64,000 bases of DNA, from the NCBI RefSeq assembly GCF_000425485.1, contig NZ_AUDN01000008.1, positions 186,001-250,000 of the forward strand. The letters run 5' to 3'. Under the pieces are notes generated by a model. It ran no database searches, was not told where the DNA came from, and saw only the letters and a list, made by a program, of their open reading frames with translations. The DNA is from Flavobacterium tegetincola DSM 22377. Its GTDB lineage: Bacteria; Bacteroidota; Bacteroidia; Flavobacteriales; Flavobacteriaceae. Numbering within the stretch: position 1 is the first letter of the stretch; each line of letters opens with the position of its first letter. A program made the position numbers and the translations under genes. Positions 1-4,151 of the stretch are shown here, piece by piece.

Positions 1-665
1 GCTCCGATTCCTTGCAAAGGATGTGGACCAGGATTCCCTCCACTTAAAACTGGCGACAATTCGGGTTCAACGGCAATCACTTTTAGATTAGAAAATTTTT
101 CTTTCAACACTTCAGCAACACCTGTAATATGACCGCCCGTTCCTACTCCAGTAATAATGTAGTCTAAACCGTCTGGAAAATCATTTGCAATTTCTAGTGC
201 CGTAGTGGTTTTGTGGATTTCAATATTCGCTGGATTGTCAAATTGTTTTGGAGACCAACCGTTAGGCGTTTCTTTTACCAATTCCGCAGCGCGTTCAATG
301 GCGCCTTTCATTCCTTTCTCTTTCGGAGTCAATTCAAATTCGGCACCGTAGATTTCCATCAATTTTCTACGTTCGACACTCATCGATTCGGGCATTACTA
401 AAATCACTTTGTAACCCTTTACCGCAGCTACTAGTGACAAACCAATTCCTGTATTTCCAGAAGTGGGTTCAATAATAACGCTATTCGGATTTAAAAGGCC
501 TTTCTTTTCGGCGTCTTCAATCATTGCTAAAGCAATTCGGTCTTTAATGCTGTTTCCAGGATTATTGCGTTCCAGTTTGATCCAAACATTTCTGTTTTCA
601 AATAATCGTTCTAATTTAACGACAGGTGTATTTCCAATGGTTTCTAAAATGCTATTCGCTTTCAT
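1..665 (-). CDS. cysK: Cysteine synthase (O-acetylserine sulfhydrylase), 3' end outside window
   Basis: PLP-dependent enzyme that makes L-cysteine from O-acetylserine and sulfide in the cytoplasm. I translated the minus strand from the ATG at 665. It opens [18 protein letters not shown], has the PLP-lysine region NPGNSIKDR, the substrate loop [10 protein letters not shown], and the glycine-rich phosphate loop [10 protein letters not shown]. It is still open at base 1, so the C-terminus is missing (about 221 codons visible). It starts 23 bp after the cysE stop on the same strand, so the two form a serine-to-cysteine operon behind the attenuator at 1542-1668. Family certain; CysK versus CysM cannot be settled from the fragment. 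Confidence 0.93.
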
Positions 666-688: not shown

Positions 689-1513
689 TTATATACTAAA
701 ATTTAGTGCTTCAGGAAATTGGTCCTTGCTCTTTATATTTACTTGACTTTTATGGTATACCAACGATTCAGCGGGAATGGAATTTGTAAGCCAAACATTT
801 CCACCAATAACAGCATCTTTTCCGATGACTGTTTTTCCACCGAGAATAGTAGCGTTTGCATAAATAGTTACATTATCTTCTATTGTCGGATGCCGTTTTA
901 CCTCGGCTGCATCTTTAGTTACGGTCAACGCTCCCAAAGTAACACCTTGATACATTTTTACATGTTTACCAATAACCGCCGTTTCACCAATTACAATTCC
1001 GGTTCCGTGGTCAATTAAAAAATGTTCGCCAATTGTGGCTGCGGGATGAATGTCGATCCCTGTTTTGCTGTGTGCGTGTTCGGCAATTAATCGTGCTAGA
1101 ATTCGTGCATTGTTGTTCCATAAAATAAATGCAATCCGGTGTACTGTAATGGCAAAAAATCCTGGATATGCAATCAAGACTTCATTCTTTGATTTGGCCG
1201 CGGGATCAAATTCAAAAATTGCATTTAAGTCGTTTGACAAAACTTGATGCAACTTTTCGCACTGGTCGAAAAAATCAGCGCTCATTTGGGTTGCTTCTTC
1301 TTTTGTAAATTGTTCTGCTTCCAATAATTGAATTAACAACAAGCTCAACTCTTGCTCTTTATCGGCAAAAAACTGATAATCGATGTATTCCTTTTGAGTA
1401 CAAAACAACCATTCGGTCATTTCATTGATCCAATACTTAATTTTCTTTTTACTGAAGAATAATTTCTTTTCAAGAAAATTAGCTTGGTAAATGAGCTTGT
1501 TTTTTGATTTCAT
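689..1513 (-). CDS. cysE: Serine O-acetyltransferase
   Basis: Acetylates L-serine with acetyl-CoA to O-acetylserine, the committed step of cysteine synthesis. The 274-aa protein has an N-terminal helical part, the conserved stretch AYPGFFAITVHRIA near residue 115, and a C-terminal left-handed beta-helix of hexapeptide repeats. It includes DHGTGIVIGETAVIG with the catalytic His-Asp region, and GGKTVIGKDAVIGGNVWL. Length and layout fit the SAT family found in Bacteroidota. It is first in the operon with the cysteine synthase. A terminator hairpin lies only 28 bp before its start codon, so transcription must read through that hairpin to express it. Confidence 0.93.
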   Translation of the reverse strand: MKSKNKLIYQANFLEKKLFFSKKKIKYWINEMTEWLFCTQKEYIDYQFFADKEQELSLLLIQLLEAEQFTKEEATQMSADFFDQCEKLHQVLSNDLNAIFEFDPAAKSKNEVLIAYPGFFAITVHRIAFILWNNNARILARLIAEHAHSKTGIDIHPAATIGEHFLIDHGTGIVIGETAVIGKHVKMYQGVTLGALTVTKDAAEVKRHPTIEDNVTIYANATILGGKTVIGKDAVIGGNVWLTNSIPAESLVYHKSQVNIKSKDQFPEALNFSI

Positions 1514-1541: not shown

Positions 1542-1569
1542 AAAAAAACTCCCCAATAACGGAGAGTTT
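1542..1569 (-). terminator. Attenuator terminator upstream of cysE
   Basis: On the minus strand AAACTCTCC (1569-1561), loop GTTATT, then GGGGAGTTT (1554-1546) form a 9-bp stem with one U-G pair, followed by an unbroken T run to 1542. It lies between the Cys-rich leader ORF and cysE, not downstream of any structural gene on this strand, which fits attenuation rather than ordinary termination. Confidence 0.85.
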
Positions 1570-1617
1570 CGTGTGATTTTTGAAATTCATCAAAATACTT
1601 TATAGCACAAAACCCTC
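1562..1617 (-). promoter_or_regulatory. Antiterminator hairpin of a cysteine attenuator
   Basis: GAGGGTTTTGTG (1617-1606, the last codons of the leader ORF) can pair over 12 consecutive positions with CACGAAACTCTC (1573-1562), with two G-U pairs and a 32-nt loop. The second strand overlaps the 5' arm of the terminator at 1561-1569, so the two hairpins exclude each other. A ribosome that reaches the leader stop would cover 1606-1617 and allow termination. A ribosome stalled at the Cys codons (1638-1627) would leave it free and allow read-through into cysE. The pairing is read directly from sequence; the mechanism is inferred from classical attenuators. Confidence 0.75.
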
Positions 1618-1668
1618 TGATTTAGAGCAAGTGCAACAATGTGTTCCGATGGAATTTATTCTGGACAT
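1600..1668 (-). CDS. Cys-rich leader peptide of the cysE operon (22 aa)
   Basis: Short ORF from ATG at 1668 to TAA at 1600-1602. It contains THCCTC, giving three cysteine codons out of four (TGT TGC ACT TGC, 1638-1627) in a 22-residue peptide, followed by SKSEGFVL. It ends 31 nt before the terminator stem and 87 nt before cysE. Its last codons form one strand of the antiterminator. A cysteine-codon cluster directly upstream of the cysteine-forming serine acetyltransferase is what a cysteine-sensing leader requires. No clear Shine-Dalgarno is present, which is normal in Bacteroidota. Confidence 0.75.
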   Translation of the reverse strand: MSRINSIGTHCCTCSKSEGFVL

Positions 1669-1784
1669 TCTATTTCCGTTTAGGCTACAAAGTTCAGAAT
1701 TAATCAATGCGCATCCAAATTAGTAGGGATTACTTTAACGGTTTTTAGATTTGGGAACTTCTAATTGCTGGATTGCAAAATGAA

Positions 1785-2003: not shown

Positions 2004-4151
2004 TTAATTCTTTTTTAGCAAAATTTTCTCTTGTGTAAATTGATATGCGGCATCTAAAAACGACACCATTTTTGCCCAATTTGAATTCGGTTCAAAGTAG
2101 TTTTTATATTCTTTGACTGTTTTTATGTTCAATTGATTACCCGAAATCGCAGCTGTCCTGATGAATTTCCCTGTTTCATTTTCCACTTTTTTATTGAGTT
2201 TTTCAATCCCTATTACCGTGTAACCCGCTGGAATTTCAAAAATAAACTCATTGTCAAATAATCTTGGAAACGTCATATACACATTATTGACACGGTCTTT
2301 TTGTTTTTTATCGACGTCAATTTGATTGGTTAAGAATTTACCGATTTCAATGATGTAATTGTCTCCCGCTTTTTTTACAAGGTTGTTTTTAATGACAAAT
2401 TTTTCTTCAAATGAAAACGGCTGGTTGCTTCCGTAACGTCCCGTATTTTTAACTTCATAATCCACATCATCAATTTCAAATTCAAATTCTTGAGAAACAA
2501 TTTTTTTCAACTCCTCCTCTTTTCGTTGTTTCACTTTATCTATAAGTGCCGCAAATTCCTTTTGATACTGTTCCTTTTTCTTTTTATTCCGAACCAATTC
2601 CATCAACGGCGTTGTGCCATATTTTGCATAATCTTCGTTCACATAATCATAAAATTCCAATTTATCCGATTGCTCTGATTCTTTAAAATGTCCGAAAAAG
2701 GAAGAAACTCTATTGATCTTTAAATCAGTTAAATTGGATTCTAAAGCAATTGTAGTAGTTGTTTTGGAAACGTTATCGGCTGAAGTTGTTTTAGGCAATA
2801 CGATGTTTTCAGCATCCACCACTTTTTTGCCTTTTGAAACTTGAAGTGCATACGCTTCCGTATTTTCAAGATTGTAATTGAACTGATCTGCACTTGAAAA
2901 AGGACTGAAAAACTCTAAATAAATTGGATTTTTAGTATTTACTTTCAGTAATAATGTGACATTATTTTGAATTAATAAATCCTTAATTGGTCCGTTAAAG
3001 CGTGCCGTACCAATGATTATGTCGTAGTTGATCTCGTTCTTCTTCAAGAAATTCATGAAGTGATTGATGAACTGCTCCTCATTTTTAATAAAAACCGGAT
3101 TTTGATACAATTCAAACGGATAAAAAATATTAGTCTCATGCGCCACAAAGGCTTCTACGTATTTTGTAAAATAAACGTGCCTCGTATAGTAATATACCTG
3201 TCTTACTTTCTCTTCATCACTGGCAAATGTCTTTGACTTTACAAATGCATTGATTTCACTGATGTCGCCGTATGGTTTGAATTTATTATTGTAATAATTA
3301 AAAACGTCGTCTTTGCTCACCGTCTTCTTTATGATGCTTTCTTTTTCCGACAAAAACGCTTCTGCTCCAGCTTCAAAACGGGCAGATCGAGCAAAATATA
3401 CTTGAAATTTGTAGAACGGTAATTCTGCGGCAGGATAAAACCAGATGGGAAATTCATTTTTCTCAATGTCTTTTGCAACCAGTTCATATTTGCGATCGCC
3501 ACCTTTGTTATAGACTTCTTTCAATTCGGGCGCCCCATTGTATGTATTGAAATTGATGAAAAAATCATTTTCCGTTTCAAAAAGTAATTTCATTTCCATT
3601 GTAGGATAGATATCGCCCAAAGTGGTTTCTACCGGAGCAAAACCCGTTTCATAAAAGGATTTAAAAGGCTCAACCGTATAATAATAGAAGTCAATAATAT
3701 CTCCAACTTCTAAATTTGCGATGGCAATTTTCTTGGTATCGTCAATATCTTTGGCCTCTTTATCTACATCAACTTCAATTTCCGTTCCGCCCGCTTTTAC
3801 AATTTTAATTCCCACTGTAGTTGTTCCTCTTTTAAACGAAAAACCTTTTGTAGTATAAAATCGTTCGGCAAATGAAAATTCTGAAAATTGCTGCACAGCA
3901 TTGGCATCTTGCAATTTAATTCTCTTTCGAACTGCCGATGTATACGTTACACTTTTACCAAACTTGTGAAAATTATAATAATCCTTTTTAAAGATAATTA
4001 CGGCCGATTCGCCTTTCCACTTGACTGGAACAGCAATTGTGTTTTTATGATCGTCATTTTTTCCCCAAAAAAATTCTTTGATTTCTGCTTTATTTTGAGC
4101 GTAGGAAAAGGAACACAACAGCAGTAATAGACAAGGTAATAGTTTTTTCAT
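2004..4151 (-). CDS. Secreted DUF3857-type protein with a non-catalytic transglutaminase-like region
   Basis: A 715-aa protein with a signal peptide (MKKLLPCLLLLLCSFSYAQ). It shares layout with its upstream neighbour at 4161-6083: an N-terminal DUF3857-like beta domain, a transglutaminase-like middle, and a C-terminal beta region. In the middle, VYYYTRHVYF aligns with the neighbour's IYYWVQDNIRY, but the catalytic RYGDCKGMG block is replaced by VFIKNEEQF and LDGTE by LEFFS. Cys and Asp of the triad are therefore gone. Function unknown; a structural or partner role is possible. The genes are 9 bp apart and probably cotranscribed. Confidence 0.75.
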   Translation of the reverse strand: MKKLLPCLLLLLCSFSYAQNKAEIKEFFWGKNDDHKNTIAVPVKWKGESAVIIFKKDYYNFHKFGKSVTYTSAVRKRIKLQDANAVQQFSEFSFAERFYTTKGFSFKRGTTTVGIKIVKAGGTEIEVDVDKEAKDIDDTKKIAIANLEVGDIIDFYYYTVEPFKSFYETGFAPVETTLGDIYPTMEMKLLFETENDFFINFNTYNGAPELKEVYNKGGDRKYELVAKDIEKNEFPIWFYPAAELPFYKFQVYFARSARFEAGAEAFLSEKESIIKKTVSKDDVFNYYNNKFKPYGDISEINAFVKSKTFASDEEKVRQVYYYTRHVYFTKYVEAFVAHETNIFYPFELYQNPVFIKNEEQFINHFMNFLKKNEINYDIIIGTARFNGPIKDLLIQNNVTLLLKVNTKNPIYLEFFSPFSSADQFNYNLENTEAYALQVSKGKKVVDAENIVLPKTTSADNVSKTTTTIALESNLTDLKINRVSSFFGHFKESEQSDKLEFYDYVNEDYAKYGTTPLMELVRNKKKKEQYQKEFAALIDKVKQRKEEELKKIVSQEFEFEIDDVDYEVKNTGRYGSNQPFSFEEKFVIKNNLVKKAGDNYIIEIGKFLTNQIDVDKKQKDRVNNVYMTFPRLFDNEFIFEIPAGYTVIGIEKLNKKVENETGKFIRTAAISGNQLNIKTVKEYKNYFEPNSNWAKMVSFLDAAYQFTQEKILLKKN

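Follow-up and report, generated by a model that had tools for sequence, protein, structure and literature searches.

The window analysed here (i.e., the whole 64,000-nucleotide stretch of Flavobacterium tegetincola DSM 22377, positions 186,001 to 250,000 of contig NZ_AUDN01000008.1) carries on its minus strand a leader that we identify, with high confidence, as a ribosome-mediated transcription attenuator of the cysE-cysK operon. A ribosome stalling on the Cys codons of this leader very probably switches cysE-cysK on when cysteine is short. The observed basis consists of the anatomy of the leader, its conservation and co-variation among relatives, and its link to the cysteine pathway; from these, we infer that the leader is translated, that transcription terminates behind it, and that cysteine is the signal.

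Anatomy of the cysE leader and its predicted switch

Attenuators of the trp/his type in Enterobacteria consist of a leader ORF with codons for the product amino acid, RNA strands that pair as 1:2, 2:3, or 3:4, and a terminator before the biosynthetic gene. The window leader shares this plan (Table 1): clustered codons for the regulated amino acid (Cys at codons 11, 12, and 14) lie in a short ORF, the three strand pairings can be drawn, and a terminator-like hairpin is found in the sequence between the ORF and the first gene. It differs from the trp/his type in that the codons are those for Cys, the host belongs to Bacteroidota, and relatives carry two same-signal attenuators in series.

Table 1. 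Features of the cysE leader, its promoter-like site and its operon (positions in the window)
Feature	Position	Strand	Details
-33 promoter element TTTG	1716..1719	-	Bacteroidota-type consensus
-7 promoter element GAACTTTG	1688..1695	-	1 mismatch to TANNTTTG; 20-nt spacer from the -33 element
Leader ORF MSRINSIGTHCCTCSKSEGFVL	1600..1668	-	ATG, 22 codons, TAA; letter-by-letter check; homologous leaders in L113 and L114
Tandem Cys codons TGT TGC (codons 11-12), presumed sensor	1633..1638	-	Codon 11 at 1638-1636, codon 12 at 1635-1633; kept in L113 (HCCTS) and L114 (SCCTN)
Third Cys codon TGC (codon 14), not conserved	1627..1629	-	Read as 1629-1627; Ser in L113, Asn in L114
Strand 1 (protector)	1624..1634	-	Pairs with strand 2 in the predicted untranslated-leader fold (minimum-energy fold)
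Strand 2, antiterminator 5' strand GAGGGUUUUGUG	1606..1617	-	Starts 21 nt past the start of the first Cys codon
Strand 3, antiterminator 3' strand CACGAAACUCUC	1562..1573	-	9 nt in common with the terminator 5' arm
Predicted intrinsic terminator hairpin (strands 3:4)	1545..1570	-	9-bp stem AAACUCUCC/GGGGAGUUU at 1569-1545
Run of seven U, terminator tail	1548-1542	-	Sequence
cysE, serine O-acetyltransferase (274 aa)	689..1513	-	NCBIfam TIGR01172, 171.7 bits (below the 210.65 cut-off); NF041874 EpsC, 151.8 (above 150)
cysK, cysteine synthase, second operon gene, extends out of the window	1..665	-	NCBIfam TIGR01139, 403 bits (above the 350.95 cut-off)

The sequence-only reading had described a 22-codon ORF with Cys-Cys-Thr-Cys, a 12-position antiterminator pairing, a 9-bp terminator whose T tail follows a stem overlapping the antiterminator strand, and a cysE start 28 nt past position 1542. 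These elements were recovered as described, i.e., the ORF to the base (1668-1600), strands 2 and 3 (1617-1606 and 1573-1562) paired at 12/12 positions including two G-U pairs, 9 nt common to strand 3 and the terminator arm followed by seven U, and the cysE ATG at 1513. In addition, the predicted minimum-energy fold contains a 1:2 protector hairpin (1634-1605) together with the terminator, so that all four trp-type segments are present. Strand 2 ends 6 nt ahead of the end of the stop codon; by position, it would lie beyond a stalled ribosome and under a terminating one, and the antiterminator excludes the terminator.

A promoter-like site lies 19 nt upstream of the leader ATG. Promoters of the Bacteroidota type combine a -33 TTTG with a -7 element, and the nearest relatives L113 and L114 have GAAATTTG as their -7 element at an equal spacer. 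Among first leaders, 36/43 have this consensus with at most one mismatch (2.1 expected from mononucleotide shuffles), 10-55 nt (median 20) upstream of the ATG. Downstream, the first gene falls short of the TIGR01172 cut-off and narrowly passes that of NF041874 (EpsC), and was thus named serine O-acetyltransferase. Both cysE and cysK, as well as cysH, cysD, and cysN in relatives, match the amino acid that would be sensed. Searches of the window's genome returned no match for CysN at E 1e-40 and none for CysD at 1e-60, and this absence fits a stand-alone cysE-cysK there.

In the mechanism that we propose, transcription would start a short way upstream of the leader ORF. With ample Cys-tRNA, the ribosome would pass the Cys codons, reach the stop codon and cover strand 2, strand 3 would then join strand 4, and RNA polymerase would terminate 28 nt before cysE. 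With the ribosome held at the first Cys codon, the nascent RNA would form 2:3. At equilibrium, the full window leader with a ribosome stalled at that codon is predicted to prefer the terminator (8.5 pairs for 3:4 and 2.5 for 2:3), so the switch must be kinetic, with 2:3 forming first, as is taught for trp. The predicted switch (i.e., 2:3 when stalled and strand 2 covered at the stop) appears in 58/60 distinct leaders, a figure that is partly by construction because the strands were chosen for pairing. The Cys codons start 18-41 nt before strand 2 in 55 of these 60 leaders and 9-12 nt before it in the other 5.

Conservation in Flavobacterium and chance expectation

With a cut-off of E 1e-80 or better, cysE orthologues were found in 35 of 249 genomes of the genus, and in 32 of these 35 a Cys leader with its terminator precedes either cysE itself or the first gene of the cysE operon. 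In 14/35, the element lies directly upstream of cysE. In 18/35, cysE stands behind cysN, and the leader is found at the operon head in 18/18 cases, before cysH or, in one (L148), before cysD; the genes were named by NCBIfam for one operon and by sequence motif for the remaining ones. The element moves with the pathway, sitting at the head of cysHDN-cysE once cysE joins that operon and preceding uroporphyrinogen-III methyltransferase in one genome whose cysE is separate. Among the 14, the two Cys codons of L136 are separated, and its antiterminator does not outperform shuffles (p 0.76). G141 (L117) has an ORF of MPV* only, without a Cys leader, and retains a terminator-like hairpin (identified by eye) 100 nt before cysE. 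Neither a Cys leader nor a terminator is in view in G112, and the cysE upstream region of G172 runs off the contig.

The sequence-only reading had proposed trp/his-type attenuation by Cys codons, and this comparison strongly supports the proposal: the homologous leaders predicted from these cysE upstream regions keep both the Cys codons and the pairing, the compensatory changes looked for in both stems occur (i.e., antiterminator and terminator arms change together), and the pathway link is retained. In the nearest relatives, L113 (89% identical cysE) and L114 (81%), the CysCys pair is kept and the third Cys lost. When cysE loci of every kind were pooled (108), an ATG-started ORF with three Cys codons in six lay within 300 nt in 20; two of these ORFs (MCFCC) seem trivial. 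Some named loci share genomes with the G-labelled set (e.g., L040 = G009). The full set occurs outside the Flavobacterium label in three, namely L045 (a Bacteroidetes MAG) and L075 and L097 (Bacteroidales MAGs).

We also scanned upstream of cysD across the phylum, where 68 of 198 genomes had a match. Sixty of the 70 matching places were covered (56 regions of 4.8 kb and 4 shorter), 5 of them from Flavobacterium genomes that carry a different cysD type. None of the regions (0/60) held a short ORF combining three Cys in six with a following terminator, by a scan that is blind to spread Cys codons and missed six second leaders at operon heads. On this result, the idea of a phylum-wide Cys attenuator before cysD was rejected, and the element seems to characterise the cysHDN-cysE/cysE lineage of Flavobacterium, apart from scattered occurrences elsewhere. 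Two ORFs ending in poly-Cys, without a terminator, were seen in the cysD regions (L243 and L259, the latter 4 kb away and TTG-started).

For the window leader itself, the folding z score is -2.3, with 2/200 shuffles equally good, and its 2:3 duplex reaches -17.1 kcal/mol compared with a mean of -6.5 for dinucleotide shuffles of strand 2 (p 0.002, the floor with 500 shuffles). Of the 60 distinct leaders, 42 have an antiterminator better than shuffles at p<0.05, and in 58 its 3' strand overlaps the terminator arm by at least 6 nt. Restricting the set to leaders under 65% identity leaves 9/12 at p<0.05 (Fisher 5e-11). The 18 that miss this threshold include L136, L155a (0.36), L145a (0.20), L042a (0.16), and L158a (0.15), and L114, from the window's own clade, also falls short (p 0.076). 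An earlier fixed-window test on 24 leaders gave a Fisher value of 7e-19, with L004 and L136 failing.

Swapping strands across species in that 24-leader test gave pairs hardly worse than own pairs in many rows; the window strand 2 ranks 4 of 22, with 3 other species' terminator arms pairing at least as well. Because the terminators share sequence, this swap is a weak control, and we relied on the shuffle test instead. Given 22 leaders in a mixed alignment, RNAalifold returned no common pair.

A codon control covered 872,580 bases from 158 sources and counted short ORFs starting with ATG that hold three Cys codons in a stretch of six and have a terminator within 110 nt. A terminator follows 52/169 Cys-clustered short ORFs, a figure enriched by design since cysE or its operon guided the choice of sources (with some overlaps and repeated genomes among them), compared with 0-11% in sets without Cys codons. 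These control sets, taken on the same DNA, give the accidental rate of the scan: 0/41 GTY, 8/185 YTG, 3/98 TYG, 3/74 GYT, 0/60 CAY, 4/53 TGG+CGG, 1/9 GAY, 1/84 TAY, 14/601 TTY, 15/232 AAY, and 4/61 ACW. The YGT set, which shares TGT with Cys, gave 20/72. Of the 52 hits, 27 lie at the heads of the 18 operon loci, 22 before cysE elsewhere, and three at other places: L037 (an overlap out of frame), L072, and L144, where the hit is distant from the operon head.

Probable tandem attenuators and a Met-rich sister scaffold

Two Cys attenuators stand in series before cysH or the operon start in 15/18 cysHDN-cysE heads (9 found by scan and 6 by eye), as in L152 (5521-5806) and L145 (5587-5897) among the operon heads L142-L159. 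Tandem Cys attenuators also precede cysE in L035 and L042, and uroporphyrinogen-III C-methyltransferase in L327 (G024:C4:80400-84400), from a genome in which cysE stands apart. Such same-signal tandem attenuators look new.

A covariance model built from 19 Cys leaders only (R1) also picks up Met-rich sister leaders before metY, metX, and trans-sulfuration-type PLP genes. Leaders carry 3.5 Cys and 1.8 Met codons before cys genes (19 leaders) versus 1.8 Cys and 3.8 Met before met genes (42 leaders), with Mann-Whitney p values of 4e-8 for Cys and 8e-7 for Met that are optimistic because the leaders are related. By class, with the downstream gene assigned from the first hit to any of eight motif classes inside about 2.2 kb, the Cys and Met codon numbers are 3.8 and 1.6 for cysE (n = 8), 3.4 and 1.8 for cysH (n = 10), 2.3 and 3.6 for metY (n = 28), 1.7 and 3.3 for metX (n = 6), and 0.4 and 5.1 for trans-sulfuration genes (n = 8); five further leaders stand before other genes and one has no call. 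When one protein per met class was compared with NCBIfam, metY scored above its cut-off and metX and the PLP enzyme below theirs. Met or Met/Cys codons are found in L196, L197, L201, L206, L145 (2622), L153 (2606), L303, and L305-L310, and the genes behind these sister leaders are of the metX, trans-sulfuration, and metY types.

In the sister subfamily, strands 2, 3, and 4 co-vary three ways, with core pairs CCTCTGC-GCAGAGG, CCCCTGC-GCAGGGG, CCGCTGC-GCAGCGG (or GCAGCGC), and CCCTTGC-GCAAGGG. Of 72 leaders, 37 pair at 7/7 core positions, 30 at 6, and 5 at fewer; three of these last have cores CCTCCCA or CCTTCCG. Pairing at 7/7 is reached by 51% of leaders with their own core versus 32% with another leader's core, and by 5/13 rare-core leaders.

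The window's genome has one sister leader (peptide MKLTICNMYRMMWIYPQSLSIA) at G000:C7:5300-5424 (L192 1801-1925), before a metY of the O-acetylhomoserine sulfhydrylase type. R1 does not match the window's own leader, which belongs to another subfamily. Across the genus, an R1 tally of 226 of 249 genomes is not taken at face value because an antisense match (L200) scores 41.0 bits; the best E is <=1e-8 in 139/249. The family set comprised 120 genomes, 118 of them from other genera, and R1 matched 8 of these 118 at 1e-6. The readable next gene is metY in 7 of these 8, with Met-rich or mixed Met/Cys leaders, and the eighth (L311) has a Met-rich leader. A second model (R2), built from a mixed alignment with no base pairs and thus a sequence profile only, gave 15 matches in the window's genome at E 0.1, including its own leader (49.7 bits) and the metY leader (32.5 bits). 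The third match (C2:227303-227417, 21.5 bits) has a terminator-like hairpin without a Cys- or Met-rich ORF.

The Cys/Met codon swap on one scaffold looks new, and we lean towards a single leader-peptide attenuator family with interchangeable sensing codons (Cys for cysE, cysHDN-cysE, and siroheme; Met or Met/Cys for metY, metX, and trans-sulfuration) that would run much of the sulfur amino-acid metabolism of Flavobacterium, often stacking two same-signal attenuators. If true, stacked attenuators would multiply two read-through probabilities and so yield a steeper cysteine response than one can give. The tandems ask whether bacteria tune response steepness by stacking, and the Cys/Met exchange offers a natural codon-swap experiment on sensor identity.

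Several neighboring elements were recorded at these loci. At the met locus of the window's genome (L192), a SAM-II aptamer (1542-1601, minus strand) is divergent from the metY leader, a SAM-I riboswitch lies further along (3807-3911, plus strand), and a Flavo-1 RNA motif (Rfam type sRNA) is at 3988-4065 (minus strand). In L200, L202, and L207, sister-scaffold leaders with few Cys or Met codons precede OsmC-like genes (named by motif only). Tandem Met/Cys-rich leaders (MKNNRQNNMNKMRNMMCCKHYLWNELA and MKTLHHNEMCHKSCRCMKMRLCCC; R1 41.1 and 33.8 bits), each with a terminator-like hairpin, occur in L205 of G220 (6955-6666, minus strand), and the gene downstream looks, by eye only, like an EamA-type transporter.

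Alternative explanations and known systems

Stalling might depend on the nascent Cys-rich peptide sensing a small molecule (cysteine, sulfide, or a metal) rather than on a lack of Cys-tRNA, and one subfamily does have a well-conserved peptide (CNxCC-xMW/MG-K..SAE..IA). However, its conserved stretches partly coincide with RNA strands 1 and 2, the 60 leaders have little in common beyond clustered Cys codons and their place, and Cys is largely replaced by Met in the sister leaders before met genes; we therefore consider an arrest peptide unlikely. A metabolite riboswitch or a tRNA-sensing (T-box-like) leader with an incidental short ORF is less probable still. SAM-I occurs in three of the searched loci and SAM-II nearby in several, but such an RNA would not need Cys codons kept at the spacing before strand 2 given above. 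A search of Rfam 15 returned nothing above the gathering score for the window leader or for sister leaders (12 sources), the best matches being Phe_leader at E 0.29 and 0.2, and a riboswitch or T-box identity was rejected on this ground.

Terminator-like hairpins are common in this DNA (6 found versus 3.9 expected from shuffles in 6 kb), and the hairpin could accordingly be the terminator of the preceding gene, or a constitutive attenuator, beside an accidental Cys ORF. Yet the upstream gene has its own terminator-like hairpin at 1984-1946, with the promoter-like site in between, and so the first possibility was rejected. Simple chance is rejected by the codon control and the antiterminator shuffle test, and conservation in 32/35 genomes contradicts it as well, which makes a fortuitous arrangement very improbable.

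Cys-codon attenuators are already known from mycobacteria and Rhodobacterales, and the window element joins them; more surprising are the tandems and the codon swap seen in its relatives. In Rhodobacterales, uORFC-8-2 precedes cysS and has tandem Cys codons and a terminator stem with a U run, which its authors read as ribosome-mediated attenuation (PMC8632094). That motif controls the Cys-tRNA synthetase in Alphaproteobacteria and has its own structure; by this description, it is set apart from the window leader, whose gene is cysE. Cys-codon leader ORFs before cys operons of mycobacteria and other Actinobacteria share with the window leader a Cys-codon leader ahead of cys genes. They have a Cys run near the stop and no conserved terminator, and Rho-dependent termination has been suggested (PMC1262725); translation attenuation by mycobacterial poly-Cys leaders (Canestrari 2020) is cited in PMC13236596. 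In the window leader, the Cys codons are 11-14 of 22 and a strong terminator-like hairpin follows. Salmonella mgtCBR likewise has two leader-ORF attenuators in series on one transcript, a "singular example" according to its authors (PMC3641672). Its signals differ (ATP and proline), whereas the tandems of the relatives both carry Cys codons (or Met and Cys) and lie before a biosynthetic operon.

In 2010, leader-peptide systems were said not yet to have been shown outside Proteobacteria and Actinobacteria (PMC2965389). Leader-like short ORFs receive a passing mention in a transcriptome study of Bacteroides (PMC7366714), and a transcriptome of F. psychrophilum gives clues for leader-peptide attenuation before amino-acid operons, its leader section naming pheA, hisG, ftsY, acsA, alaS, and rimP and no cys or met gene (PMC9723704). 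The coupling had been put forward as not described in Bacteroidota. For Cys, this holds in the searchable literature; for attenuation in general, the F. psychrophilum clues speak against it (PMC9723704). We recognised no Cys or Met leader attenuator from Bacteroidota in the open-licence literature, and subscription reports (e.g., Lopatovskaya and colleagues, 2010) may list some. Searchable literature holds little on the control of cysteine synthesis in Bacteroidota, ribosome-mediated attenuation there rests on few reports, and the window element with its relatives provides a genus-wide, directly testable case.

A different kind of leader was also seen in Bacteroidota. In L011, L020, L024, L090, L072, and L243, leader peptides ending in a run of Cys codons, without a visible terminator, stand before cysE or cysD and resemble the mycobacterial kind.
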